From Verrucomicrobiia bacterium (GTDB lineage Bacteria > Verrucomicrobiota > Verrucomicrobiia > Verrucomicrobiales > Akkermansiaceae): DNA of 37,415 nt. The DNA lies in NCBI GenBank assembly GCA_030432565.1, contig JAUIGV010000044.1, positions 1 through 37,415 of the forward strand. Direction: 5' to 3'. Below the pieces are notes generated by a model that saw nothing but the letters and a program-made list of their open reading frames with translations, was not told the origin of the DNA and ran no database searches. The translations under genes and the position numbers were made by a program. This document shows positions 17,862 through 37,128 of this stretch, piece after piece (the first letter of the stretch is position 1; each line of letters opens with the position of its first letter).

Positions 17862-19715
17862 ATGGCCGCTACCGCGAGTTACACTGAAGACGACATTAAG
17901 AGCCTCGATTGGCGAGAGCATATTCGTTTGCGTCCGGGGATGTACATCGGCAAGCTGGGAGACGGTTCCTCGGCGGACGATGGTATTTACATCCTGCTGA
18001 AGGAGGCGCTCGATAACTCGGTGGATGAGTTTGTGATGGGCCATGGCAAGGAAATTACGATTGAGATCGATGACGAAAGCCGGGTCGAGGTGAGGGACTT
18101 CGGGCGGGGGATTCCGCTTGGCAAGCTCATGGACTGTGCTGCCAAAATCAACACGGGTGCGAAGTATGACAGTGAGGCTTTTAAGAAGTCGGTGGGTTTG
18201 AATGGAGTGGGAATCAAGGCGGTGAATGCCTTGAGCGAATTCTTCGAGATTCAGGCGTGGCGCGAGGGTAAGACGAAGGCGATCGAGTTTTCGAAAGGGA
18301 TGGTGGTCGAGGAAATGAAGCGACCGAAGGCTGATAAATCGGCGGGTGGAACGCGCCTGGCTTTTGATGTGGACCGGACGGTTTTTCCGAAACGCACCAA
18401 GTTTCGAGCTCCTTTTGTGGAGAAAATGTGTCGTTATTATTCCTATTTGAATCCGGGGCTCGCTCTGATTTTCAACGGGAAGAAATTTAAGTCGAAGAAT
18501 GGTCTGTTGGATTTGCTCAAGGAGGAAATGGATGAGGCTCCGCTTTATGAGCCGATTCATTTGACCGGCAAGGATATCGATGTGGCCTTCACCCACGGTC
18601 CGGGTGGCAGCGAGGATTATTATTCCTTTGTTAACGGACAGAATACGACGCAAGGCGGCACCCACCTTGCGGCCTTCCGCGAGGCCATGGTGAAGGTGAT
18701 TCGGGAGTTTTATAAAAAGAGCTACGATCCTTCGGATATCCGTGCAGGAATCACGGGTGCGATTTCGGTGCGGATCGAAGAGCCTGTTTTCGAGAGCCAA
18801 ACCAAGACGAAATTGGGTTCCACCACCGTGGCGCCGGAAGGAGAGACCGTGCGGACATTTATCGGGAATTTTCTGAAGGAAGAGTTGGACAACTACCTCC
18901 ACAAAACGCCTGCGGCCGCCGAGGCGATTCAAAAACGTATTCTTTCTGCCGAGAAGGAGCGAAAAGAGCTCAGCGGAGTGAAGAAGTTGGCCCGTGAGCG
19001 TGCGCGCCAGACGAAGGTCCACAACAAGAAGCTTCGCGATTGCCGCGCGCATTTTAACACCAAACACAAGCGTCGCGAGGACACCACGGTGTTTTTAACC
19101 GAGGGCGATTCGGCCAGTGGATCGATTACGAAGTGTCGCGATGTGGAATCCCAGGCAGTGTTTTCCTTGCGAGGGAAGCCGCTCAATACCTTCGGCCTGA
19201 CCAAAAAGGTGGTTTACGAAAACGAGGAATTCGCCCTCCTGCAAGCAGCTTTGGGGATTGAGGAAGGGATCGAATCGTTGAGGTTCAATCGGGTCGTGAT
19301 CGCGACCGATGCCGACGTCGATGGAATGCATATTCGTCTGCTTCTCCTGACTTTCTTCCTCCAGTTTTTCCCCGAACTGATTCGCGAGGGACATCTGTTT
19401 ATCCTGCAGACTCCGCTTTTCCGCGTGAGGAACAAAAAGAAGACCATTTATTGCTACGATGAAGACGAGCGGGAGGCTGCGATGAAGGAGCTGGGTCGCA
19501 ATCCAGAAATCACCCGATTCAAGGGCTTGGGTGAGATTTCACCTGACGAGTTTAAATTCATGATCGGCAAGGACATGCGCCTGGATCCTGTTCAGATGGA
19601 GGAAGGCAAAGGTCTTAAAGAGATGTTAACCTTTTATATGGGGAAAAATACTCCGGATCGACAGGGGTTTATTATTGAGAATCTCCGTGATGACGTTGAT
19701 TCGGCCGAGGTTTAG
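17862..19715 (+). CDS. parE: DNA topoisomerase IV subunit B (ParE-type)
   Basis: 617 residues. The ATPase (GHKL) domain shows EALDNSVDE (Asn52, Mg-ATP binding), DFGRGIP and [14 protein letters not shown]. The TOPRIM domain shows TEGDSASG (Glu414) and DADVDG (Asp483, Asp485, Asp487), and TRFKGLGE comes near the C-terminus. The [11 protein letters not shown] element and the lack of the long GyrB insertion fit the Bacteroidetes/Chlamydiae-type ParE rather than a main GyrB. With ParC it decatenates and relaxes DNA using ATP. Its partner parC lies 2.3 kb downstream on the same strand, separated by a gene for a secreted protein. No Shine-Dalgarno is seen before the ATG. Confidence 0.93.
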
Positions 19716-19819: not shown

Positions 19820-21934
19820 ATGAAAAAACTGATTTTTCCCTTTGCCGCCGTATCTCTGTCATTGAGCGCTTCAGCCCAGTTGGTGATCAACGAAATCCTC
19901 GCTGATCCTCCAGGTGACATCACCGGAGATGCCAATGGTGATGGAACCCGGGAAGGTTCGCAGGATGAGTTCATTGAATTGGTAAACAATAGTGGTGGCG
20001 CGGTTGACCTTAACGGCTGGTCTATTACGGATGGCACCGGTGAGAGGCATTTTTTTAGTGCGTCGACGGTCGTTGCAGACGGGCAGGCAATCGTGATCTT
20101 TGGGGGTGGAGTTCCCACCGGAGATTTTGGAGGGGCAATTGTGGACGTGGCATCGGGCGGTCTGCTTGGAATGAATAATTCTGGCGACACCATGACTTTG
20201 CTGGATGCGAGTTTTGCAGTTGTTGATACCTTCACTTATTCGTCGGAGGGCGGCCAAGACCAGTCACTGACCAGAGATCCTGATGTCACCGGACAATCCT
20301 TTGTGGGCCATGGCTCGTTGGGTGATGGGTCCATTTTGTTCTCTCCCGGCAGTAGAAATACCGGTGCTCCCTTTGCGGGAGATTCGCTTTCAGTGACGAT
20401 TGAGCCTGCTTCATTTTCCGAAGGAGCGGGTGCTTCGGCAGCTTCCGGAACAGTGTCACGGACGGGAGATACCACTGCAGCAGTTGAAGTGATACTCTCA
20501 AGCAGTGACGTCGGCGAAGCTACTGTCCCGGGGAGCGTGACGATTCCAGCGGGTGCTTCTTCAGCGCCATTCACTGTCGCCGCAGTCGATGATTCCGAGC
20601 AGGACGAAGAGCAAACGGTTGTGATTTCGGCATCCGCAGCCGGTCTTTTCTCGGGGTCTTTTCAGGTGACAGTGGAGGACGATGAACCCCCGATCCCGAC
20701 CATCAGTCTCATCTCTGATCCTACCTCGATCTCTGAAAACGGGGGATCAGCAACAGTGACGATCGAGATTAGCACGGCCGCCGACTCCCCGATCACATTC
20801 AATTTGGAATCAGATGATACCAGTGAGCTTACGGTTCCAGGTTCGGTCACGATTGACGCTGATTCGACGACAGCGACTTTTGCGGTAACTGCCGTTGATG
20901 ATGCGATCGTTGATGGGACCCAGATCGTGAGTGTGACGGCGACTGATCCTTCCCTGGTGATCTTGCCGACCAGTGTGAATATTTCCGTAAATGACGACGA
21001 GGCATTTGCAGTGCCCGACGTGGTGATCAATGAGGTGCGAATCGATGATCCAGGTGCGGATGATGACGAGTATGTCGAGCTCTTTACCCCGACCGCTGGT
21101 TCGGTGAGTCTTGGTCGTCTCTTTCTGGTTGTGATCGGTGATGGCTCCGGTGGATCCGGAGTCGTTGAGAGGGCTATTGACCTTTCCGGGCAGTCAATCG
21201 ACGATGGCTATTTTTTGGTTGGGTCAGAGATTATGCTTCTGGCGACGCCCGATCTTACGGCTCCGGCTAACTTCCTGGAGAACAGCGATAATATCTCAAT
21301 TCTGCTCGTTTCAGATTTCACGGGTTCGGTAGGCGACGACCTGGATGCCAATGACGATGGGACTCTCGAAACCAAGCCGTGGGGGACACTGTTGAGTGGC
21401 GTTTCTCTCGTTGAGGAGCCGAATCTTGACGACGGGGCAGGCGGTTTTATCAAACCAGGCGGCACGGAGTGGGACTACTCAGCGGATCTCGGGATTGAGG
21501 CGGTGGGACCCGATGGAAACTTTGTCCCAGGGCATGTCTTTCGTTCTCCAAATGGCTCTGGAGATTGGCAAATCGGGCCTTTTGCTCCATCAGCTGGTGA
21601 CCCCGATGCAGAGCCTCCGGTTCCCCCCGTTGATGTTCAGGACTCACCGGGTGCGGAAAATGGCACGGTGACTCCTCCCGAGGGTGAGGAGCTCCAGGTT
21701 CTTGGATTCGAAATCGATATGGAACTTGGTCGCGGTGACCTCGTTGTAGCCGGACTTGGGACTAAAGTTTGGATTCTTCAAGCGTCGGACGATCTCGGTT
21801 TGAACGATGCATGGGCGGATGTGCCAGGTGGGTTTTCCGAGATCGATAATCCGGATGGCTCAACGACCATTCGATTTTTCGACAGCTTTTCTACCACTTC
21901 AACCCGTTACTATCGCATGATCGAGCAGCCTTAG
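19820..21934 (+). CDS. Secreted lamin-tail/Calx-beta domain protein
   Basis: 704 residues with a signal peptide (MKKLIFPFAAVSLSLSASAQ, cleavage after SASA). A lamin-tail domain covers about 20-150 (LVINEILADPPGD, then DEFIELVNNSGGAVDLNGW), two Calx-beta repeats about 192-290 and 295-395 (both with VPGSVTI and an acidic VEDDE/VNDDE end), a second lamin-tail-like domain about 400-560 (VVINEVRIDDPGADDDEY), and a C-terminal domain ending in RYYRMIEQP, a tail style common in verrucomicrobial exported proteins. Strongly acidic, probably calcium-binding, at the cell surface or released. It sits between parE and parC with no obvious link to them and has its own terminator. Confidence 0.88.
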   Translation: MKKLIFPFAAVSLSLSASAQLVINEILADPPGDITGDANGDGTREGSQDEFIELVNNSGGAVDLNGWSITDGTGERHFFSASTVVADGQAIVIFGGGVPTGDFGGAIVDVASGGLLGMNNSGDTMTLLDASFAVVDTFTYSSEGGQDQSLTRDPDVTGQSFVGHGSLGDGSILFSPGSRNTGAPFAGDSLSVTIEPASFSEGAGASAASGTVSRTGDTTAAVEVILSSSDVGEATVPGSVTIPAGASSAPFTVAAVDDSEQDEEQTVVISASAAGLFSGSFQVTVEDDEPPIPTISLISDPTSISENGGSATVTIEISTAADSPITFNLESDDTSELTVPGSVTIDADSTTATFAVTAVDDAIVDGTQIVSVTATDPSLVILPTSVNISVNDDEAFAVPDVVINEVRIDDPGADDDEYVELFTPTAGSVSLGRLFLVVIGDGSGGSGVVERAIDLSGQSIDDGYFLVGSEIMLLATPDLTAPANFLENSDNISILLVSDFTGSVGDDLDANDDGTLETKPWGTLLSGVSLVEEPNLDDGAGGFIKPGGTEWDYSADLGIEAVGPDGNFVPGHVFRSPNGSGDWQIGPFAPSAGDPDAEPPVPPVDVQDSPGAENGTVTPPEGEELQVLGFEIDMELGRGDLVVAGLGTKVWILQASDDLGLNDAWADVPGGFSEIDNPDGSTTIRFFDSFSTTSTRYYRMIEQP

Positions 21935-22047: not shown

Positions 22048-24036
22048 ATGGACGAAACCAACGACTCCCAGGAACCGCGCGAGAATCTTTCGCTGGGTGG
22101 AATGTATTCCGATTACTTCCTCGATTACGCCAGCTACGTGATCATGGAGCGCGCTGTTCCACATCTGGGCGATGGCTTGAAGCCGGTGCAGCGCCGGATT
22201 TTGCACTCGATGCGTGAGCTTGAAGACGGCCGCTACAACAAGGTCGCCAACGTCGTTGGAAACACCATGAAGTATCACCCGCACGGCGACACTTCGATTG
22301 GTGATGCCATGGTGCAGTTGGGTCAAAAAGACCTCCTCATCGACACCCAGGGAAACTGGGGAAACGTGCTAACCGGAGATCGGGCGGCGGCGCCCCGATA
22401 CATCGAGGCCAGACTGACTCCTTTTGCGCTCGAGGTCGCCTTCAATCCCAAGACCACGAATTGGACCCGCAGTTACGATGGCCGGAACAAGGAACCGGTC
22501 ACGCTGCCGATGAAGTTTCCTCTTCTCCTGGCACAGGGCGTTGAAGGCATTGCGGTGGGGTTGGCCTGCAAGATTCTTCCCCACAATTTTATTGAACTCA
22601 TCGAGGCCTGCATCTGCGCCCTGCGAAAGCAGCCCTTCGAGCTGTTTCCGGATTTCCCGACCGGTGGGTTGGTTGACGTGAGCGATTATCGGGACGGACT
22701 TCGCGGTGGTAAGATCCGGGTGCGGGCCAATGTTGAGGTCGTCAAGTCGAAGCTTATTCGCATCAGTTCCATCCCGTTTGGGACCACGACCGGCGGAGTG
22801 ATGGATTCCATTGTCAGCGCAAATGACAAAGGGAAGATCAAGATCTCAAAGATTGAGGATAACACGGCGGAAAACGTCGAAATTCTGGTTCACCTTCCAG
22901 CCGGCGCTGATGCCGAGATGACCCGGGAAGCTCTCTATGGTTTCACTGATTGTGAGGTTAGTATTTCGCCAAACTCATGTGTCATTCACGATGGTCGACC
23001 GCACTTTATGCCGGTGACCGAGATCCTCAAAAATTGCGCCTTCATGACCAAGGCGCTCCTGCTGAAGGAGCTTGAGATCCTGCTCGGGGAACTCAACGAA
23101 AAGTGGCACTTCAGCTCGCTTGAGAAGATCTTTATCGAAAACCGCATCTACCGCGACATCGAGGAGTGCGAGACCTGGGAAGCGGTCATCGAAGCCATCG
23201 ACAAGGGGCTGGAGCCTTTCAAAAAACTCCTCAAGCGCGAGGTCACCCGGGATGATATTATCCGTCTCACCGAGATCAAAATTAAGCGAATTTCGAAGTA
23301 CGATAGCTTCCGGGCTGACGAGGAAATCCGTGGCCTGGAAGACCGAATCGCGGAGACCGAAAAGAATATCAAGAACATCACGCGATACTCCATCGCCTAC
23401 TTCAAGGCGCTCATCAAAAAGTATGGCAAGGGCCGCGAGCGCAGGACCGAGCTCGCTGAGTTTGGAGTGGTGAAGCGTTCAGCGGTGGTCGTTGCCAGCG
23501 AGACCCTTTACCTGGATCGCAAGAATGGTTTTGCCGGGATCAGTCTGAAGAAGGAAGAGGCGCTTGAGAAATGTTCAACGCTTGATGACATCATCATCTT
23601 TTCGCTCGATGCCGAGATGCGCGTCACCAAGGTGGCCGACAAGATTTTCGTCGGGAAGCGTCCGGTTCACGTCTCGGTTTTCCGGAAAGACGAGCCCAAG
23701 ATTTACTCCATGATTTATCGTGAAGGTCGCGAAGGTCCATACTACGCCAAGCGTTTCAAAGCGGGCGGCGTGACCCGTGACAAGATTTACAACATGGGGA
23801 AGGGAACCAAAGGGTCGCGCGTGATGTATTTTGCAGTCCACGACACTGAGGAGGAAAGCTCGGCCAATACCGTGGTGGTTCATCTCAAGCCCGCCCTTCG
23901 GTTGCGGAATGTTTCACGGCTCTTCTCCTTTGGCGAAATTGCGATCAAGAGCCGGGGCTCAAGAGGAAATATTGTCACCAAGCTGAACGTGGATCGGGTG
24001 GTCCGTGCGTCCGCAAGTGATCTTGGTGAAAGTTAA
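22048..24036 (+). CDS. parC: DNA topoisomerase IV subunit A (ParC-type)
   Basis: 662 residues. The breakage-reunion domain shows the CAP-like winged helix with KPVQRRILHSM and HPHGDTSIGD (77-86), the active-site tyrosine in APRYIEARL (Tyr118), a coiled-coil tower and a shortened C-terminal beta-pinwheel starting near residue 480. It is shorter than E. coli ParC (752) and fits the Bacteroidetes/Chlamydiae-type subunit. In the quinolone-resistance region the residue matching GyrA Ser83 is Thr82 and the acidic residue (Asp86) is kept. It forms the A2B2 enzyme with the ParE at 17862. No Shine-Dalgarno precedes the ATG. Confidence 0.93.
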   Translation: MDETNDSQEPRENLSLGGMYSDYFLDYASYVIMERAVPHLGDGLKPVQRRILHSMRELEDGRYNKVANVVGNTMKYHPHGDTSIGDAMVQLGQKDLLIDTQGNWGNVLTGDRAAAPRYIEARLTPFALEVAFNPKTTNWTRSYDGRNKEPVTLPMKFPLLLAQGVEGIAVGLACKILPHNFIELIEACICALRKQPFELFPDFPTGGLVDVSDYRDGLRGGKIRVRANVEVVKSKLIRISSIPFGTTTGGVMDSIVSANDKGKIKISKIEDNTAENVEILVHLPAGADAEMTREALYGFTDCEVSISPNSCVIHDGRPHFMPVTEILKNCAFMTKALLLKELEILLGELNEKWHFSSLEKIFIENRIYRDIEECETWEAVIEAIDKGLEPFKKLLKREVTRDDIIRLTEIKIKRISKYDSFRADEEIRGLEDRIAETEKNIKNITRYSIAYFKALIKKYGKGRERRTELAEFGVVKRSAVVVASETLYLDRKNGFAGISLKKEEALEKCSTLDDIIIFSLDAEMRVTKVADKIFVGKRPVHVSVFRKDEPKIYSMIYREGREGPYYAKRFKAGGVTRDKIYNMGKGTKGSRVMYFAVHDTEEESSANTVVVHLKPALRLRNVSRLFSFGEIAIKSRGSRGNIVTKLNVDRVVRASASDLGES

Positions 24037-27978: not shown

Positions 27979-29334
27979 TTAGGCGGATTTTGGAGACAGT
28001 GATTTACTGAAAATCACATGTAAAACGGCGGTGGCAAGCCAGCATGGGAGAATGCAGAACCAAGAGCTGATGCCCATGAACTTGATGAGATAAGTGGCGA
28101 TGGCGACGGGGATGAGCCACGCGAGGAGGACGGATGGGTTGAGGCTTTGGCGTTTTTTCTCGGCTGCGAATTGCGGGAAGTTAAAGCGCTTCGAAAAATA
28201 CCAATCGGCAAAGATGACCGCTCCCATGGGTGCGAGGACGGTGCCGTAAAACCCCACAAAATCGAGGAGCTTGAAGGCGAAGGCCGGGAAGACTCCGGCG
28301 ATGGTGGCGACGATGCCTGCGACCAGAGTCATCGTTGTCCGGGAGGAGCCGGGGATCATGGCCTGAAAGGCGAGGCCGGCCCGGTAAATGGTCGGATTGG
28401 CCGTGGTCCAACCGGCAACAATGACGCAGATGATTCCGGCAATTCCAGCCACATTGTTTGCCATCACGCCGGGGTTGGGGGCGGTCTCCCCGGTGGTTTT
28501 GATTTGTGCGGCGAGCATGAAGGCGGCGGCAATCCAAGCCATATAGTGACCGACATACATTCCCCCGCACGCGGCCCATCCCGCACTTGGTTTTTTGGCA
28601 TAACGAAAGACCGAGAGGTCGGCCATGCCGATATGCATGGCGGAGTTGCAGAACCATGAAAAGAGAACAACGGACCAGAATCCCATGGTCGTTTGGCTTC
28701 CGTCCTTTTGGGCAATCAAAATTGACTCGGTCCAGACCTGGTTGAGTCCTTCCCAATTGGCCGCTCCGATTTGTTTTAGGGCCACCAATCCGCAGGCCAG
28801 AAAGACCAAGACCATCCAGGGTGCGGCAACGTTGGCAAACCTCGCCACGACGTCGTAACCTCGCGCGGCCACCAGAGCGATGACGGCGCCAACCGCGAGA
28901 ACAATGATCACAAACGAGATGCTGTTGGGATAGACGGAATCGAAGCCTGGCATCTCGATATGGAAAGGAATGCCAACCGCGGTTGCTGACACCGTGATCA
29001 TGGCCCCGGCGAGGAAGCAGAAGAGAATACCGTTGGCGAGATTGTAGAATTTGACGAGGTGGTTTCCCGCGATTTTTTCGAGGTGAAAATAAAGCGTCAT
29101 GCGGGCCTTGGTTGCGATGGGAGCACAAACGAAGCGCCAGCTCAGGACCGCGAGGAAATTGCCGAGCAGAAGGCCAATGAAGATGTTCTGCAGACTGACT
29201 CCATTGAGGAGGAAGAGCGGTCCAATCATGAACTCGGTTCCTGCAGCGTGCTCACCGGCATACATGCCCCAGAATTTACCGGGACCCTTGAGCGCCTTTT
29301 CGGGAACAGGGATGCGTTCGTATTCGTTTGCCAT
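27979..29334 (-). CDS. NCS1-family permease
   Basis: 451 residues from the ATG at 29334; an upstream start at 29370 would extend into the regulatory region without adding conserved residues. About 12 membrane segments are visible. GMYAGEHAAGTEFMIG near the N-terminus, WTTANPTIYRAGLAFQ and PMGAVIFADW toward the C-terminus match the cytosine/purine/hydantoin (NCS1, CodB-like) family, which uses Na+ or H+ coupling. Known members carry nucleobases, hydantoins or vitamins. Here it heads an operon with a GH-like protein and faces a LacI-type regulator and rhamnose genes across a shared promoter region, so the natural substrate may be rhamnose or a rhamnoside. No other sugar transporter is in the window. 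Confidence 0.85.
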   Translation of the reverse strand: MANEYERIPVPEKALKGPGKFWGMYAGEHAAGTEFMIGPLFLLNGVSLQNIFIGLLLGNFLAVLSWRFVCAPIATKARMTLYFHLEKIAGNHLVKFYNLANGILFCFLAGAMITVSATAVGIPFHIEMPGFDSVYPNSISFVIIVLAVGAVIALVAARGYDVVARFANVAAPWMVLVFLACGLVALKQIGAANWEGLNQVWTESILIAQKDGSQTTMGFWSVVLFSWFCNSAMHIGMADLSVFRYAKKPSAGWAACGGMYVGHYMAWIAAAFMLAAQIKTTGETAPNPGVMANNVAGIAGIICVIVAGWTTANPTIYRAGLAFQAMIPGSSRTTMTLVAGIVATIAGVFPAFAFKLLDFVGFYGTVLAPMGAVIFADWYFSKRFNFPQFAAEKKRQSLNPSVLLAWLIPVAIATYLIKFMGISSWFCILPCWLATAVLHVIFSKSLSPKSA

Positions 29335-29425
29335 AAAAGTAATTTTGGGGATCGGGTGCGGGGAGATCACTACTCTCCCAGCGGAGGCGAAGTTTCGAGA
29401 TCGCGGAGGCCTTGGTCAATCCCAA

Positions 29426-29494: not shown

Positions 29495-30520
29495 ATGGGC
29501 GGGGGTAAAGTTAGATTAAAGGATGTCGCCGAGCGTGCCGGGGTTGCGGTGAACACTGCTTCGACGATTCTCAACAAGCGTCCAAATTCCTGGGCTTCGA
29601 AGGAGACCGAAGAGCGTGTTTTTGCGGCGGCGAGGGATTTGGGCTATCGTCCGAATCGAGCCGCAGTTGCGCTGCGGTCCGGAAGCTTCAAGGCCATTGG
29701 TTTGTTGTTGGCTGATCTTGAGAATCCCTATTTCACTCATTTTTCGCGAGTGTTTGGAAACGAAATAACTGAGAGGGGATATGACCTTGTGATTGAAAAC
29801 TGGCAGACCGATCTGGACCGCGAAAAGAAGCTTCTCGAAGAGGTCGTGCATCGGAATGTCGACGGCGTGGTCGCTTTCGTGAGTGATTTGGATGAGCACC
29901 GTGAATTTTTGGAGCGTCAGCGCAAGCTGGGATTTCCAATCGTGGCGCTCGCGATGCCCGGGATCGAGGAGGTCTCGGTTGATGTCGTGATCCCAAATTT
30001 TGCGATGGGCCTGAGAGAGGCTGCAGATTGTCTTTATGAACTAGGTCACCGGCGCTTTGCTTTTTTGGATGCCCGTTCGCAAGGTCAGCGGGTGGGGGGA
30101 CGCCCCGGGTTTTTCCGGAAGATGATTGCGGAATTTGGCGACGCCGAAACCGAATTGGTTGGTTGCGGACCGTCGGTGGTGGAAGCCTGCGAGGCTGCTC
30201 ACAGGATTTTGGCCCGCGAAAGCCGGCCCAGCGCGGTGGTGGCTTTGAATGATCTTACCGCGATCGGCGTGATGCGGGCGGCCAAGGATCTGGGCTTGAG
30301 GGTACCGGAGGATGTCTCGGTGGTTGGTATTGATGGGATTCCGCTCGGAGAGCAGCTCCAGATTTCACTTTCGACGGTGGTCCAGCCTCATTTTGAAATG
30401 GCATCCAAAGCGGTGGAGTTTTTGATTGAGCGAATCGAAGGCGATACCAATCAGGACCCGCGACAGGCCGAATTCTCCACGCATTTTGTCCAGCGGGAAT
30501 CTGTGGGTCCCAAGTCCTGA
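29495..30520 (+). CDS. LacI-family transcriptional regulator, probable rhamnose regulator
   Basis: 341 residues from the ATG at 29495, which places the helix-turn-helix (VRLKDVAERAGVAVNTAS, then ILNKR) at the extreme N-terminus as usual for the family. Earlier in-frame ATGs at 29429 and 29453 would add a tail inside the operator region. A hinge region (YRPNRAAVALRSG) and a periplasmic-binding-protein-like effector domain (about 60-335, with NPYFTHFSRVFGNEI and SVVGIDGIPLGEQ) follow. It is flanked by a permease operon on the left and the rhamnose catabolic operon on the right, with matching palindromes in front of both. It probably represses both and is released by a rhamnose-pathway metabolite (inference). 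Confidence 0.9.
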   Translation: MGGGKVRLKDVAERAGVAVNTASTILNKRPNSWASKETEERVFAAARDLGYRPNRAAVALRSGSFKAIGLLLADLENPYFTHFSRVFGNEITERGYDLVIENWQTDLDREKKLLEEVVHRNVDGVVAFVSDLDEHREFLERQRKLGFPIVALAMPGIEEVSVDVVIPNFAMGLREAADCLYELGHRRFAFLDARSQGQRVGGRPGFFRKMIAEFGDAETELVGCGPSVVEACEAAHRILARESRPSAVVALNDLTAIGVMRAAKDLGLRVPEDVSVVGIDGIPLGEQLQISLSTVVQPHFEMASKAVEFLIERIEGDTNQDPRQAEFSTHFVQRESVGPKS

Positions 30521-30699: not shown

Positions 30700-31902
30700 A
30701 TGACTCCGGAAATTCGACTCCGTATTCACGAAGCACTCGATCGTTTTGAGATTGAGCTTCCCTCGTGGGGGTTTGCCGATACCGGCACCCGGTTTGGCAA
30801 GTTTTTGCAGGACGGCGCAGCCATCGATCTGGCCGACAAGCTCGCTGATGCCGGAGAGGTTCATAAATTGACGGGCTGCTGCCCTAAGGTGGCAGTGCAC
30901 GTCCTATGGGATTTCGAGGAAGGGGATGACCCGGCAGAGGTTGCAAGGCTGGCCGCGCGGCACGGGGTAAAGATTGGATCGATCAATCCCAATCTGTTTC
31001 AAGATCAGGACTATCGTTTGGGAAGTTTGTGTAATCCGGCTGCCGAGATTCGGGCGCGGGCCTGTCGCCATATCGAGGACTCGATCAAGTTGGGGCAAAG
31101 TTTGGAATCAGAGATCGTGACCCTTTGGTTGGCTGACGGCACGAATTATCCCGGGCAAGGTTCGATCCGCGCACGCAAGCAGGTCCTCGAAAAAGCACTT
31201 GAGGAATTTCATGGGAAGCTCTCGGAAGAACAGACTTTCCTGATCGAATACAAGCCTTTCGAACCCGCCTTTTATCATACTGACATCGCTGACTGGGGGA
31301 TGTCCTATATTTACGCGAAGAAGATGGGGCCGCAGGCCAAGGTTCTTGTCGATACCGGGCATCACTACCAGGGGCAAAATATCGAGCAGATTGTGGCGTG
31401 GTTGCTCGATGAGGACATGCTCGGAGGATTTCATTTCAATGATCGCCGTTATGCCGACGACGATCTCACGCTCGGATCAATTGATCCTTACCAGATCTTC
31501 CGCATCTTTGGTGAGATTCATGGATACGCGGCTTCCAAGGATGGCCGGTATCCCGGGATCGAATATATGGTCGACCAGTCACACAATCTAAAGCCCAAGA
31601 TCGAGGCGATGATTGAAACGGTCATGACGGCCCAGGAATTGTATGCCAAGGCAGCCTTGATAGACTTCGGTCAGCTTGAGAAACATCAGGCGAGTGGTGA
31701 AATTGTCGACGCCGAACGTCTCATGAAACAGGCGTTCAACAAGGACGTCAGTGGTGAAATTGCCGAGTGGCGCAAGGGGCGCGGACTTTCCCCGGATCCA
31801 TTAATCGCCTTCCGGGAAAGCGGGTACCTTGAGAGGATTGCTGCGGATCGCTTGGCCCGGCGAGCAGCCCTTGGGATCTCCGAAAGCGGAAGCTACGCTT
31901 AA
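30700..31902 (+). CDS. rhaI: L-rhamnose isomerase (RhaI type)
   Basis: 400 residues, the usual size of the Pseudomonas-type L-rhamnose isomerase, which differs in sequence from E. coli RhaA. It converts L-rhamnose to L-rhamnulose in the cytoplasm using a divalent metal. TIM-barrel motifs: LWLADGTNYPGQ, IEYKPFEPAFYHTDI (Glu183), VDTGHH (Asp218, His221), GGFHFND (His245, Asp248) and RYADDDLT. It is the first gene of the plus-strand catabolic operon; the gap to the next gene is 36 nt. The palindrome at 30561 lies in its upstream region. Confidence 0.94.
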   Translation: MTPEIRLRIHEALDRFEIELPSWGFADTGTRFGKFLQDGAAIDLADKLADAGEVHKLTGCCPKVAVHVLWDFEEGDDPAEVARLAARHGVKIGSINPNLFQDQDYRLGSLCNPAAEIRARACRHIEDSIKLGQSLESEIVTLWLADGTNYPGQGSIRARKQVLEKALEEFHGKLSEEQTFLIEYKPFEPAFYHTDIADWGMSYIYAKKMGPQAKVLVDTGHHYQGQNIEQIVAWLLDEDMLGGFHFNDRRYADDDLTLGSIDPYQIFRIFGEIHGYAASKDGRYPGIEYMVDQSHNLKPKIEAMIETVMTAQELYAKAALIDFGQLEKHQASGEIVDAERLMKQAFNKDVSGEIAEWRKGRGLSPDPLIAFRESGYLERIAADRLARRAALGISESGSYA

Positions 31903-31938: not shown

Positions 31939-34131
31939 ATGTCATTTAAGCCATCCGAATACCGCCATGTGAATTACGGTTGGGACGACGCGAAAGTCGG
32001 CTCAATGAATGCTGTCGAGCGTCTTGCCTATCGATCAAATATCCTTGGTGACGATCAACGTATCACCAATACCGGAGGGGGAAACACCTCTTCGAAAGCG
32101 ATGGAGATCGATCCATTGACCGGTGAGGAAGTTGAGATTCTGTGGGTCAAGGGATCGGGTGGTGACTTGCGGACTGCGACGGTTGGAAACTTCTCGTCTC
32201 TATATCAAGACAAGCTGATCGCATTGCAGAAGATCTACAACGAGACGTCCCCGAATGGGGTGAAGACCGGGATCGAAGACGATATGGTGGGGATGTATCG
32301 CCACACCACTTTTAATCTGAATCCGAGGCCGTCGTCGATTGATACTCCCTTGCATTCCTTCATCCCGCACAAGCATGTCGATCACATGCATCCAAATGCC
32401 TTCATCTCGATCTGTGCGACCAAAAACTCGGAAGCGATTACAAGGGAGATTTTCGGGGATGAAGTGATTTACACTTCCTGGCAACGTCCGGGATTTGACT
32501 TGGGACTTTTGTTTCAAAGCGTCTGTGAAAAATACCCTCAAGCGAGAGGAATTAACATGGGGCAACATGGTCTCATCAATTGGGCGGACGACGACAAGGA
32601 GTGTTACGAACTCACTCTGGAGTTGATTGAACGGGCCGGTCGATACATCGAAGACAGGGACAAGGGAGACCAGACATTTCAAGGGCAGAAATATGAAAAG
32701 CTATCTGTTGCCCGGCAAAAGGAATTGGTAGGCGAAATCGTGCCGTGGTTGCGTGGACAGGTGAGCCAGCAGCATCGATTTATTGCGACGATTGAATCAA
32801 CGGACGCGGCTTTGGAGTTTGTGAATTCTCACGCCGCGAAGCGCCTTGCCGAGTTGGGGACTTCTTGTCCGGATCACTTCCTGCGGACCAAGATCAAGCC
32901 GCTTTACGTCGATTGGGATCCGCAGAATGAAGATCTTCAGATCCTCCGGGCCAAGCTGGTTGAGGGATTGGAAAAGTATCGTGCCGACTACGCGGAATAC
33001 TACGAGGCGAACAAGGAGCCCTCTTCGCCTGCGATGCGTGACCCGAATCCGACCGTAGTCCTTATTCCGGGAATCGGGATGGTGGCCTTTGGAAAGAATA
33101 AGTCGGAGTCGCGCGTGACGGCTGAATTTTACAACTGTGCGATCTCGGTGATGCGCGGTGCGGAGGCGATTGATGAATACATTGGTCTTCCTCAAAAAGA
33201 GGCTTTTGATATTGAATACTGGGCTCTTGAAGAAGCGAAGCTTCAGCGCATGCCACCCGAGCGTGAGTATGCCCGCAAAGTGGTCATTGTCGTCGGGGCA
33301 GGTAGTGGAATTGGCAGGGAAATGGCCCACTTGATGATCGACCAGGGAGCGCATGTTGTTTGCGCTGATTTGAATCTGGAAGCTGCCGAGGAGACCGCGG
33401 CTGAATTGATCGCGAAAGTCGGGCAGGGGATCGGGGTGGCTGGAACGGGAATTTCAGGATGTGGGAATGCCATTGGGCTGGCCTGCAACGTGACTGATCG
33501 AGATTCGATCAAAGCCATGCTTGATGAGGTGGTTTATGCCTACGGTGGTTTCGATCATATTGCGGTTACCGCCGGGATTTTTGTGCCGCCGGACCGCACC
33601 GGGCATATTCCCGACGACAAGTGGGCGCTTACCTTCGGGATCAATGTCGCCGGGCCCTATTTTGTCGCGGATGAGGCTGCCAAGATTTGGCGGGCCCAGG
33701 GGCTTAAAGGTTCGATGGTGGTCACGACGAGTGCCAATGCCGTCGTTTCCAAAAAAGGGAGCCTGGCCTACGATACCTCGAAGGCGGCCGCGAATCATTT
33801 GCTTCGTGAGCTTGCCATCGAGCTCTCGCCGCTCGTGCGGGTGAACGGGGTGGCCCCGGCCACGGTGGTGGCTGGAAGCGGGATGTTTCCACGGGACCGG
33901 GTCATTGCCTCTCTCACTAAGTACGAAATTCCCTTTAGTGACGATGAGAGCACGGAGGATCTTCGTGGCAAGCTGGCGCAGTTTTATGCCGATCGCACGC
34001 TGACCAAGGCTCCCATCACGCCGCAGGATCAGGCGCAGGGGATGCTCTTTATGTTGAGCGATGCCTCTTCGAAAACGACCGGGCAGGTCTTGGCGGTTGA
34101 CGGAGGGCTTCACGAAGCGTTTCTTCGCTGA
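31939..34131 (+). CDS. rhaEW: Bifunctional rhamnulose-1-phosphate aldolase/lactaldehyde dehydrogenase
   Basis: 730 residues in two fused enzymes. The N-terminal class II aldolase/adducin domain (to about 430) has ITNTGGGNTSSK and the metal-binding cluster HSFIPHKHVDHMHP (139-152); it splits L-rhamnulose-1-phosphate to dihydroxyacetone phosphate and L-lactaldehyde. The C-terminal short-chain dehydrogenase (about 445-725) has the NAD site GAGSGIG (453-459) and the YDTSK catalytic pair (Tyr611, Lys615); it oxidises lactaldehyde to L-lactate. This fusion is known from Bacillus and Chloroflexus-type rhamnose pathways. It lies between rhaI and the MQO-like gene (12 nt gap). No free-standing lactaldehyde dehydrogenase is present, so the fusion does this step. 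Confidence 0.94.
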   Translation: MSFKPSEYRHVNYGWDDAKVGSMNAVERLAYRSNILGDDQRITNTGGGNTSSKAMEIDPLTGEEVEILWVKGSGGDLRTATVGNFSSLYQDKLIALQKIYNETSPNGVKTGIEDDMVGMYRHTTFNLNPRPSSIDTPLHSFIPHKHVDHMHPNAFISICATKNSEAITREIFGDEVIYTSWQRPGFDLGLLFQSVCEKYPQARGINMGQHGLINWADDDKECYELTLELIERAGRYIEDRDKGDQTFQGQKYEKLSVARQKELVGEIVPWLRGQVSQQHRFIATIESTDAALEFVNSHAAKRLAELGTSCPDHFLRTKIKPLYVDWDPQNEDLQILRAKLVEGLEKYRADYAEYYEANKEPSSPAMRDPNPTVVLIPGIGMVAFGKNKSESRVTAEFYNCAISVMRGAEAIDEYIGLPQKEAFDIEYWALEEAKLQRMPPEREYARKVVIVVGAGSGIGREMAHLMIDQGAHVVCADLNLEAAEETAAELIAKVGQGIGVAGTGISGCGNAIGLACNVTDRDSIKAMLDEVVYAYGGFDHIAVTAGIFVPPDRTGHIPDDKWALTFGINVAGPYFVADEAAKIWRAQGLKGSMVVTTSANAVVSKKGSLAYDTSKAAANHLLRELAIELSPLVRVNGVAPATVVAGSGMFPRDRVIASLTKYEIPFSDDESTEDLRGKLAQFYADRTLTKAPITPQDQAQGMLFMLSDASSKTTGQVLAVDGGLHEAFLR

Positions 34132-34143
34132 TAGATCTTTTTT

Positions 34144-35634
34144 ATGAAAACCGACGTTCTTCTTATCGGCTCCGGGATCATGTCCTCGACGCTCGGGGTA
34201 ATGCTCAAGGAATTGCAACCCGGTCTCTCGGTGCATCTTTTCGAGGTGACCGGGAAACCCGCCCAAGAGGCTTCGAATGGATGGAATAATGCGGGGACCG
34301 GCCACGCCGGAATCTGTGAATTGTCCTACACTCCCCATCAGGAGGAGGACGGAACTGTCGATATCACCAAGGCGATCTCGGTTTTCGAGGACTTCGAACA
34401 TTCCCTCCAATTTTGGGCGCATGCCGCACGGAGAGGGATCATCAAAGATACCGGTGAATGTTTGAATGCCTTACCGCATATTTCGCTCGTTCACACCGAA
34501 GAGCAGGTTCCATATTTGAAGGCCCGGTTTGAGGGGTTGAAGAAGCATCACTTTTTCGAGCCGATGAAGCACTCGACCGACCGGAAGGAAATAGAGGAGT
34601 GGGCTCCGCTTTTGATGCAGGGACGGGACCCGGGGCAGCCGGTGGCGGCAACCTACATGGAGGGTGGCACCGATGTGAACTTCGGCGAAATTTCCCGTCA
34701 TTTTTGCGAGTGGCTTGACGAGCAGGATCATTGTGGAGCGCACTTTGGTCATCGGGTTGTTGATCTCTATAAAAAGACTTTGGAGAAGGGCTGGATTGTC
34801 ACTGTTCGTAATGAGGAAACGGGCGAAAAACAAAAGGTGCATGCTGACTTTGTCTTTGTGGGAGCAGGCGGAGGATCGCTTCCGTTGCTTCAGAAATCGG
34901 GGATCCCGGAGGTGAAGGGTTATGGCGGTTTTCCGATTGGCGGGCAGTGGATGATTACCGGGAATCCCGAGGTGGTTGCAAAGCACACTGCCAAGGTTTA
35001 CGGGCAGGCGCTGGGGGCGGCACCTACAATGGCGGTGCCGCATCTTGATACACGGGTGATTGATGGTGAACGTTATCTTCTTTTCGGGCCATTTGCGGCT
35101 TGGACCGGAAAGTTCCTCCATAATGGTGGGAGTCATCTTGATTTGCCACGCTCGGTCCGCGCCGGAAATATCCTCTCCTTAATGAGGGTGGGAATACACA
35201 ATCTGGACCTCGTTAAATACCTGGTCGAGCAGGGGTTGCAATCCAAGGAATCGAGAATGCGGGAACTGCGTAATTTCTATCCGGATGCTCGTGAGGAGGA
35301 TTGGGAGGTGATTGATGCGGGAATCCGGGTTCAGGCCATCAAGCAGGAACCCGGAGAAGAGCCGGGGATCGTGCATTATGGCACGGAAGTTTTGACCAGT
35401 TCCGACAAGACCATTTCGGCCCTTCTTGGCGCCTCGCCGGGTGCCTCGGTTTCGACCCAGGTGATGCTTGAATGTATCCAGCGTTGCCTGCCGCAGTTGC
35501 TTGAATCCGACGAGGCAAAGGCCCGGATGAGTGAGATGATTCCAAACTGGAATGAGGATCTGAAAGTAGACCTTGCACGTGATCGCTATCTTGAGATTCA
35601 TGGGAGGGCCATGGCCGATCTTAATCTTGTCTGA
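34144..35634 (+). CDS. MQO-family flavoprotein, possible L-lactate:quinone oxidoreductase
   Basis: 496 residues, the usual length of the malate:quinone oxidoreductase family. The FAD-binding start is VLLIGSGIMSSTLG, followed by NGWNNAGTGHAGICELSYTP, PVAATYMEGGTDVNFGEIS and LLGASPGASVST. By similarity it would be called Mqo (malate to oxaloacetate, electrons to quinone, membrane-associated). Its position, between rhaEW (12 nt) and rhaB (3 nt), is telling: the pathway makes L-lactate, and an MQO-like protein of Staphylococcus aureus (Mqo2/Lqo) is known to act on L-lactate. I infer that it feeds rhamnose-derived lactate to pyruvate and quinone; sequence alone cannot separate the two, so no gene symbol is given. 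Confidence 0.9.
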   Translation: MKTDVLLIGSGIMSSTLGVMLKELQPGLSVHLFEVTGKPAQEASNGWNNAGTGHAGICELSYTPHQEEDGTVDITKAISVFEDFEHSLQFWAHAARRGIIKDTGECLNALPHISLVHTEEQVPYLKARFEGLKKHHFFEPMKHSTDRKEIEEWAPLLMQGRDPGQPVAATYMEGGTDVNFGEISRHFCEWLDEQDHCGAHFGHRVVDLYKKTLEKGWIVTVRNEETGEKQKVHADFVFVGAGGGSLPLLQKSGIPEVKGYGGFPIGGQWMITGNPEVVAKHTAKVYGQALGAAPTMAVPHLDTRVIDGERYLLFGPFAAWTGKFLHNGGSHLDLPRSVRAGNILSLMRVGIHNLDLVKYLVEQGLQSKESRMRELRNFYPDAREEDWEVIDAGIRVQAIKQEPGEEPGIVHYGTEVLTSSDKTISALLGASPGASVSTQVMLECIQRCLPQLLESDEAKARMSEMIPNWNEDLKVDLARDRYLEIHGRAMADLNLV

Positions 35635-35637
35635 TCG

Positions 35638-37128
35638 ATGTCCGACGGTTCGGTATTTCTGGCAGTTGATCTGGGCGCGGGGAGCGGCCGGGTGATTGCC
35701 GGGCTCATGTCCGGGGGGAGGCTTTCCCTGGAAGAAGTTCATCGTTTCGAGAACGAGCCGGTGGAAAAGAGAGAAGGTCTTTATTGGGATTTTGAGGGGC
35801 TGTGGGCAGGGGTGGTGGAGGGGCTTAGGCTGTCGGTTGAACGCTACGGAGCTTCAAATATTCGTTCAATCGGAGTTGATACGTGGGGGGTGGATTATGG
35901 ATTTATCGATAAGGAGGGGGGATTTCTGGGGAGTTTGCGACACTACCGCGACCCACGGACCAAGGGAATGTACGATGATCTTGCGACACGTGTTTCGAGA
36001 GAGATCATTTTTGAGAAGACGGGAATCCAATTCATGGATATTAACACCTTGCCACAGATGCGGGCGGAGGTGAGGGATCCTAATTCGGTGCTGCCCCGGG
36101 CAGATCAATTTTTGATGGTACCTGATTTGCTGAATCACCGGCTGACCGGGAAAGCTTTTTGTGAGCGTACGAATGCGAGCACGACCCAGTTTTACAACCC
36201 AATCAAAAAGGACTGGTCGCGGGCTTTGTTCGAGGCGCTTGAACTTTCAATGGATGTCGCTCCGGATTTTGTGGATCCGGGAACAGATCTCGGACCCGTC
36301 ACGGCTTCGCTCAGAGATGAAACAGGACTGTCAACGGATACCAAAGTGGTCACGGTGGGGAGTCACGACACGGCCTCGGCGGTGGCGGCGGTGCCTGCGG
36401 AGAGTGGATCGAAATTCGCTTATCTTAGCTCGGGAACCTGGTCCTTGTTAGGGGTGGAGCTTGAGAGGCCCGTCATCACTCCTTTGGCGCGCTCTTATAA
36501 TTTCACGAACGAAGTCGGGGTTTTCGATACCATCCGATTATTGAAAAACATCAACGGGCTTTGGTTGGTGCAGGAATGTCGGCGGGTTTGGAGAGAGCAG
36601 GGGAGTGACTGGAGCTACCGCGAGTTAGCCGAGATGGCATCGGGTGCCAAAAGGTTGCAGTCATTTATCGATCCTGATGATGGGCGCTTTGCGGGACGTT
36701 GTGACATGCCGCGGGTCATTCAGGATTACTGTCGGGAGACCGGACAAGTGGTTCCGGATGAGCCTGCCCAGATTCTCCGGTTGGTGACTGATAGTCTTGC
36801 AATGAAAGTTCGCTTCGTGCTGGAAAGGTTGGAGGAAGTGATTGGAGATGAAATTGAAGTTCTCCACATCATCGGTGGTGGCGGTCAGAATGATCAGTTG
36901 AACAAGAGTATTGCGAGCAGTATCAATCGTCCGGTTGTGGTGGGGCCTTATGAGGCCACCGCGGCAGGAAACGTCATGATGCAGAAAGCGGCGCTTGGTG
37001 GTTTTGGTAGCTTGGTTGAAGGGCGGACGATGATTCGAGAGTCTTTCCAAACCAGGCGCTTTGAGCCGGCGCATCCTGATGAATGGGCGGCTGCCTACGG
37101 GCGATTTCGGGATCTTCTAAAAGGCTGA
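35638..37128 (+). CDS. rhaB: Rhamnulokinase
   Basis: 496 residues, FGGY-family carbohydrate kinase. Motifs: FLAVDLGAGSGRVIAG (N-terminal phosphate loop), IGVDTWGVDYGFID, VGSHDTASAVAA, LSSGTWSLLG and IIGGGGQND with PYEATAAGN near the C-terminus. The GAGSGR loop and GVDTWGVDYG are typical of RhaB among FGGY kinases. It phosphorylates L-rhamnulose with ATP to L-rhamnulose-1-phosphate. It starts 3 nt after the MQO-like stop and is the last clear gene of the operon; no intrinsic terminator follows directly. Confidence 0.95.
   Translation: MSDGSVFLAVDLGAGSGRVIAGLMSGGRLSLEEVHRFENEPVEKREGLYWDFEGLWAGVVEGLRLSVERYGASNIRSIGVDTWGVDYGFIDKEGGFLGSLRHYRDPRTKGMYDDLATRVSREIIFEKTGIQFMDINTLPQMRAEVRDPNSVLPRADQFLMVPDLLNHRLTGKAFCERTNASTTQFYNPIKKDWSRALFEALELSMDVAPDFVDPGTDLGPVTASLRDETGLSTDTKVVTVGSHDTASAVAAVPAESGSKFAYLSSGTWSLLGVELERPVITPLARSYNFTNEVGVFDTIRLLKNINGLWLVQECRRVWREQGSDWSYRELAEMASGAKRLQSFIDPDDGRFAGRCDMPRVIQDYCRETGQVVPDEPAQILRLVTDSLAMKVRFVLERLEEVIGDEIEVLHIIGGGGQNDQLNKSIASSINRPVVVGPYEATAAGNVMMQKAALGGFGSLVEGRTMIRESFQTRRFEPAHPDEWAAAYGRFRDLLKG

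Follow-up and report, generated by a model that had tools for sequence, protein, structure and literature searches.

The gene at positions 34144..35634 (+) of the window, the term used here for the whole stretch of 37,415 nucleotides that was analysed, presumably encodes an L-lactate:quinone oxidoreductase which terminates methylpentose catabolism, an assignment to which we give a probability of roughly 80%. The predicted protein (496 amino acids, ATG start) belongs to the malate:quinone oxidoreductase (MQO) family and falls into a separate group of this family, hereafter class B. L-lactate is the predicted substrate because class-B genes co-occur with the gene encoding RhaEW and alternate with LldF- and LldD-like genes, because the source genome encodes a malate dehydrogenase elsewhere, and because class-B proteins carry exchanges where the presumed active site would hold the distal carboxylate. 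These findings lend support to the function that had been proposed in an earlier note on this DNA.

The genes on the plus strand are arranged in the order LacI-type regulator, rhaI, rhaEW, MQO-family gene and rhaB. The LacI-family protein (29516..30520, +; PF00356 and PF13377, HTH from about 29516) is the likely regulator of the rha operon. It is followed by genes predicted to encode an L-rhamnose isomerase-like protein (rhaI, 30700..31902, +; TIGR02635 488.5 bits, below the cut-off of 531), a rhamnulose-1-phosphate aldolase / L-lactaldehyde dehydrogenase fusion (rhaEW, 31939..34131, +) and, downstream of the MQO-family gene, a rhamnulokinase-like FGGY kinase (rhaB, 35638..37128, +; TIGR02627 439 bits, below the cut-off of 528). 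The identification of the upstream neighbour as RhaEW was borne out by a TIGR02632 match of 974.5 bits, which passes the cut-off of 567.75, and according to the ORF coordinates the MQO-family gene is indeed as tightly packed as had been claimed, with gaps of 12 nt to rhaEW and 3 nt to rhaB. Divergent to the regulator lies a gene for a cytosine-permease-like transporter (27979..29370, -), possibly an unusual permease for rhamnose or another deoxysugar, the family match being weak (NF008241, 54.9 bits, cut-off 326). Elsewhere in the window a gene encoding a lamin tail domain protein (19820-21934, +) was detected between gyrB-like (17862-19715) and gyrA/parC-like (22048-24036) genes.

As assigned by homology, RhaI, RhaB and RhaEW would turn L-rhamnose into dihydroxyacetone phosphate and L-lactate, so that RhaEW is the predicted source of L-lactate in this operon. 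The chemistry of RhaEW has been shown by others in C. aurantiacus and B. subtilis, and its product is given as L-lactate (PMC3870299). The breakdown of either rhamnose or fucose is described to give L-lactaldehyde, and oxidation of this aldehyde can lead to L-lactate (PMC3870299; PMC8857213).

Based on profile searches the window protein matches the Pfam family Mqo (PF06039) over residues 2-478 with 647.3 bits at a gathering cut-off of 27. It also passes the equivalog model TIGR01320 "malate dehydrogenase (quinone)" with 608.6 bits (cut-off 549.95); therefore, automatic annotation would name it Mqo, just as the earlier note had expected. The same cut-off is exceeded by the annotated lactate:quinone oxidoreductase (Lqo) of staphylococci (618.2 bits), an MQO-family enzyme reported to use lactate (PMC5312079). 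The window protein is predicted to run the same reaction; however, it fails the staphylococcal Lqo model NF040844 (503 bits, cut-off 915), class B and Lqo share only about 44-45% identity, and Lqo carries Lys at position 394 and Thr at position 297, by which orthology to Lqo is ruled out. Thus, the comparison with S. aureus Lqo made in the earlier note stands as a precedent within the family, whereas the staphylococcal enzyme is neither close to the window protein nor its orthologue (about 44% identity). Lqo was represented by four sequences annotated as such in S. capitis, S. carnosus and S. simulans, that of S. aureus not being among them; in two of the loci (L105 and L107) the lqo gene adjoins a lactate permease gene.

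The predicted structure of the window protein (mean pLDDT 78.6, pTM 0.83, with poorly predicted active-site loops) has as its top structural match the mycobacterial malate:quinone oxidoreductase 9dm1 (TM 0.91), followed by structures of the Drosophila L-2-hydroxyglutarate dehydrogenase (L2HGDH), although the L2HGDH model NF008726 is failed at sequence level (25.5 bits, cut-off 299). With the malate enzymes (Mqo, EC 1.1.5.4; E. coli b2210, mycobacterial 9dm1) the window protein has in common the PF06039 domain, the fold and the catalytic residues. Its identity to Mqo is about 45-48%, and that of class B to the reference MQOs about 45%; the two differ in that class B lies outside the MQO group in the tree, carries the substitutions Q394I, S297A/G, P295T and N61S, and is often encoded next to methylpentose genes.

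A quick tree was calculated from 140 rows, in which the window protein was realigned with MAFFT (496 residues, ungapped). Class B forms one group of 84 rows with an SH-aLRT support of 100, consisting of 19 proteins from genomes of the window's family and 65 from named loci among the best 80. Among the matches listed, these 65 originate from Verrucomicrobiota or Planctomycetota, with the exception of L159, the record of which gives no phylum. The opposite side of the tree comprises the second type found in the family (A type), the reference MQOs, the Pseudomonas sequences and the annotated staphylococcal Lqo; the split from the E. coli, Pantoea, Acinetobacter, Thioclava, Arthrobacter, mycobacterial and Pseudomonas sequences has an SH-aLRT of 100 and was repeated in a more careful tree of 46 rows (100/100). 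The window protein is thus not found among the reference malate enzymes in an MQO-family tree, the check suggested in the earlier note. In the 140-row tree Lqo sits with the MQO side, whereas a single clade of class B and Lqo was not rejected with the 46 rows and a simpler model (p-AU 0.136). Hence, it is likely, as favoured by the tree and short of a demonstration, that lactate use in class B arose separately from that in staphylococcal Lqo. Class counts leave out the gene L072 of genome G021, which is truncated where its contig stops (78% identical, adjacent to rhaB), and likewise a fragment of 22.8 bits in G080; L112 from Paenibacillus was excluded from the analysis.

The distribution of class B was compared with that of RhaEW in 117 genomes of the window's family, using a PF06039 search. 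The A type was detected in 32 genomes (754-788 bits) and the B type in 19 (636-667 bits), with both types together in 8 genomes and fragments in two further ones. RhaEW is encoded in 33 of the 117 genomes, and none of the 19 that carry a full class-B gene lacks it (Fisher p 2.4e-13). Where the A type occurs alone, RhaEW is present at the background rate (6/24), and the weak enrichment seen over all A-type genomes (14/32, p 0.04) is due to the 8 genomes carrying both types. Within the window's genus (14 genomes) 8 possess RhaEW together with a full class-B gene and 5 neither of them; in the remaining genome, G021, the truncated class-B gene lies beside rhaB and no RhaEW match was obtained. Of the 8 genomes of the genus with RhaEW, 6 show the gene order rhaEW-mqo-rhaB, the source genome among them. 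In the other two, G079 and G102 (loci L067, L068, L070 and L071), rhaEW adjoins rhaB, and the class-B gene, which is more distant in sequence (56-59% identity), is located on another contig.

A similar picture emerged from 285 genomes of the class, which were searched with a class-B profile. Class B was defined by E <= 1e-203, a threshold chosen above the best MQO-side score (663 bits) at which the weakest class-B members would be missed. By this definition, class B is present in 41 genomes, RhaEW in 103 and both in 37 (p 9e-15), while class B without RhaEW was observed in four (G121, G247, G253, G270); 7 of the 41 belong to the family already counted. Since the genomes are related, the p values given here are too small. 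The class-B gene lies at most 10 kb from RhaEW in 15 of the 37 genomes, spread over 8 family codes, at an estimated chance of about 0.7% per genome.

Furthermore, class B appears to take the place of other lactate-oxidising systems. LldEFG/LutABC (iron-sulfur and LUD proteins) and LldD (an FMN enzyme) are unrelated to the window protein by family, yet they are encoded near RhaEW in other genomes and would catalyse the same L-lactate step. Both cuts used to recognise them were chosen in this analysis: LldF was counted in 25 of the 36 LUD-positive family genomes (134-156 bits), and full-length FMN_dh proteins were split by score into type 1 (LldD-like) and type 2. As many family genomes without RhaEW likewise have LldF or LldD-like genes (50 of 84), the contrast of interest is that between class-B genomes and other RhaEW genomes. 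Where RhaEW occurs without class B in the family (14 genomes), an LldF-type LUD or an LldD-like FMN gene is present in every case, compared with 1 of the 19 class-B genomes (G024). In G020, G024 and G037 an LldD-like gene is separated from RhaEW by about 3 kb or less, the class-B gene of G024 being located elsewhere, and in G027 an LldF gene lies within 4 kb of RhaEW; the LldD-like protein of G024 and the LldF of G027 score below the curated cut-offs.

In the class sample LldF was found in 46 of the 66 RhaEW genomes without class B versus 4 of the 37 with class B (p 4e-9). It lies at most 10 kb from RhaEW in 24 genomes, and in no genome of this sample, as far as the contigs allow, are LldF and class B both within 10 kb of RhaEW. 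Neither class B nor LldF, the two systems covered by the search of this sample, was returned in 20 of the 66. Rodionova et al. (PMC3870299) reported that the RhaR regulons of some Actinomycetales and Rhodobacterales contain lldD and lldEFG, and considered that the rhamnose pathway probably extends to pyruvate; their text contains neither the term "Mqo" nor "quinone".

Some class-B genomes of the family encode further candidate enzymes. NAD-dependent L-lactate dehydrogenase-like genes were detected in 7 of the 19 (G006, G019, G026, G074, G078, G082, G108), scoring 244-296 bits with TIGR01771 and hence below its cut-off of 303.55, and the second Ldh_1 gene of G090 is predicted to encode another malate dehydrogenase. 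A type-2 full-length FMN enzyme is likewise present in 7 of the 19 (G006, G019, G026, G036, G078, G082, G108). The type-2 FMN hydroxyacid dehydrogenase of L097 matches the LldD, lactate oxidase and MftD models, in each case below the cut-off. By these searches class B is the only visible candidate for an L-lactate oxidase in 10 of the 19 genomes, namely the 8 of the genus, G056 and G090, a count which covers Ldh_2 in the source genome only (where it is present) and takes the single Ldh_1 gene of G056 and of the other congeners at family level.

The source genome (5.93 Mb, 97% complete) possesses a single MQO-family gene. Its sole Ldh_1-family gene is predicted to encode a malate dehydrogenase (NF003916, 515.5 bits, cut-off 271), and searches of this genome detected no LUD-domain protein (LldF/LldG) and no full-length FMN_dh, the latter search giving three weak matches with 40 bits at best. 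One Ldh_2 protein is encoded on contig 79, and one GlcD-like and one YdiJ-like 2-hydroxyacid dehydrogenase were identified elsewhere, so that an alternative route for lactate is possible in this organism. The earlier claim that no lactate dehydrogenase gene is present applies to the window, whereas the genome also has the unassigned Ldh_2 gene.

Excretion of the rhamnose-derived L-lactate or its oxidation by another enzyme such as this Ldh_2 protein, with the window gene being dispensable on rhamnose, is consequently the first alternative to be considered. The Ldh_2 family includes malate/L-lactate dehydrogenases, and the NAD-dependent lactate dehydrogenase-like genes mentioned above point in the same direction, though their seven carriers belong to other genera. 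However, the best match of the Ldh_2 protein is the L-sulfolactate dehydrogenase model NF040650, with 137.6 bits far below the cut-off of 500, and its gene lies outside the rha operon. Moreover, all 8 RhaEW-positive genomes of the genus retain the class-B gene in full, even where it is located outside the operon. We thus consider this alternative unlikely and prefer the assignment of the lactate step to the class-B protein.

The gene neighbourhoods of class B were surveyed in the best 80 named loci, of which 67 are class B and 13 non-B. The 67 comprise the 65 of the tree plus L116 and L162, which represent the same genes as L076 and L067 and were omitted from the tree and from the 1.5-kb count given below. 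Genes of rhamnose or fucose utilisation (rha/fuc) scoring at least 150 bits were detected within about 6 kb at 28 of the 67 class-B loci, at 20 of the 35 whose flanks are complete on either side, and at none of the 13 non-B loci. The mapping of relatives linked to rhamnose, likewise suggested beforehand, hence revealed that class-B genes do have rhamnose- and fucose-linked neighbours. Since the 13 non-B loci, all from Gammaproteobacteria and 11 from Pseudomonas, are a weak control, the A-type genes were added as a further one. Within 1.5 kb and at 100 bits, a rha/fuc gene lies beside 27 of the 65 named class-B genes from the best 80 loci and beside 6 of the 18 that stem from genomes of the family, leaving out the window, compared with 0 of the 32 A-type genes of the family and 0 of the 13 other MQOs.

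At locus L082 the class-B gene is preceded by genes for a class II aldolase, a rhamnulokinase-like kinase and an L-fucose isomerase. Microcompartment shell genes were found at five class-B loci (L122, L123, L139, L164, L170), two of which fall outside the 28 rha/fuc-linked loci. An aldehyde dehydrogenase gene is also present at L139 and L164, the latter additionally containing an aldolase-like gene and, directly upstream of the class-B gene, an Mdh-like gene. No rha/fuc gene reached 150 bits in the flanks of 39 of the 67 class-B loci among the best 80, including the two shell-gene loci; cut flanks account for a part of these 39 but not for all of them, as 15 of the 35 loci with full flanks are also without such a gene.

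Candidate active-site residues were derived from a profile of the 140 sequences aligned with L2HGDH (residues 3-447, local E 4e-11); GlpD as template gave no usable alignment. According to the L2HGDH alignment, His54 of the window protein (codon at 34303..34305, +) corresponds to L2HGDH His92, the base proposed for the Drosophila enzyme, Tyr286 to Tyr289 and His300 to His302, both described as contacts of the C1-carboxyl, and Met296 to Leu299 and Arg395 to Arg393, the contacts of the distal carboxylate (PMC10726252). His54, Tyr286, His300 and Arg395 are invariant in 140 of 140 rows, His54 thus being present in 84/84 class-B and 52/52 MQO-side proteins. The window protein and L2HGDH/LhgD accordingly have the His/Tyr/His/Arg frame in common, whereas the C1-carboxyl contact Ser88 of L2HGDH is not conserved and aligns with Ala50 in all 140 MQO-family rows.

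The two sides of the tree differ around the distal-carboxylate contacts. Position 394 is Ile or Val in 84/84 class-B proteins and Gln in 52/52 of the MQO side, and position 297 is Ala or Gly in 84/84 and Ser in 52/52, respectively. The window protein has Ile394, encoded together with Arg395 at 35323..35328 (+), and Ala297, encoded with Thr295 and Met296 at 35026..35034 (+), in place of the Gln394 and Ser297 that are invariant on the MQO side and would mark malate use. Altogether 15 of 487 usable positions separate class B from the MQO side. Among these are three of the four direct neighbours of the distal-carboxylate contacts (295, 297 and 394) and none of the eight neighbours of the C1/C2 contacts; the hypergeometric p of 9e-5 serves as a guide only, since the positions had been seen before the mapping was made. 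The exchanges Q394I, S297A/G and P295T flanking the distal-carboxylate positions are what would be expected for a methyl-ended substrate, in that Gln to Ile/Val at 394 and Ser to Ala/Gly at 297 would leave a second carboxylate without these polar partners. This argument is suggestive only, because Lqo has Lys394 and Thr297 in 4/4 copies, and thus not the class-B signature, and because Arg395 is kept in all proteins including Lqo. A divergent class-B subgroup from Planctomycetota, Chthoniobacteraceae and other hosts (L173, L175, L176, L178, L182, L184, L185) has Gly297 and mostly other residues at position 295; no rha/fuc gene at 150 bits was detected in the flanks examined, and its members may have another substrate.

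Based on these correspondences, the FAD would take up the hydride from C2 of L-lactate with His54 as the base, while Tyr286 and His300 would hold the lactate carboxylate. Without the Gln/Ser pair (Q394I, S297A), the site would be better suited to the methyl end of lactate than to the second carboxylate group of malate. Pyruvate would then be released and the electrons would be transferred to a quinone, as judged from the MQO family.

The residue comparison also bears on a substrate other than lactate. As it indicates just a changed distal end, the window protein might oxidise another 2-hydroxy acid (glycolate, 2-hydroxybutyrate or a broad range of them) and be only loosely tied to methylpentose use, in line with the 39 class-B loci without a rha/fuc gene. 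This scenario, however, would hardly be expected from the co-occurrence with RhaEW and the alternation with LldF/LldD-type genes, and it seems still less probable than a diversion of the lactate to another enzyme. Least probable of all is an ordinary malate:quinone oxidoreductase carried in the rhamnose operon and serving the TCA cycle during growth on rhamnose: the protein does reach the TIGR01320 cut-off, has the catalytic residues and R395 in common with MQO and is the sole member of its family in the source genome, but this genome has a malate dehydrogenase, an Ldh_1-family gene is present in 112 of the 117 family genomes (malate and lactate types not told apart), class B and the A type coexist in 8 genomes, A-type-only genomes do not track RhaEW, and 84/84 class-B proteins have other residues in place of the Gln and Ser that never vary on the MQO side.

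Taking the L-lactate:quinone oxidoreductase assignment as the basis, we consider a wider proposal to be reasonably probable, if less so than the assignment itself. A subfamily of MQO, seen so far only in Verrucomicrobiota and Planctomycetota, may have gained its specificity for L-lactate by substitutions of its own, separately from Lqo. Its role would be to complete the breakdown of rhamnose and fucose by a respiratory step, also in the pathways with microcompartments, and it would alternate with LldEFG and LldD. Among the titles listed in searches of open-access papers, apart from two genome papers, none connected an MQO-family protein with rhamnose, which is weak evidence of absence.

Verrucomicrobiota have been portrayed as specialists in consuming the methylpentoses of algae, and in a published figure of their methylpentose pathway the last compound is L-lactate (PMC8857213). 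If the proposed function is correct, the step from lactate to pyruvate and into respiration would be filled in for this pathway, and a whole group of proteins labelled "malate dehydrogenase (quinone)" would have to be renamed. The residue signature at positions 61, 295, 297 and 394 would then allow annotation pipelines to separate malate from lactate functions, and class B would offer an explanation, open to testing, for the change of a single flavoenzyme fold between malate and lactate as substrates.
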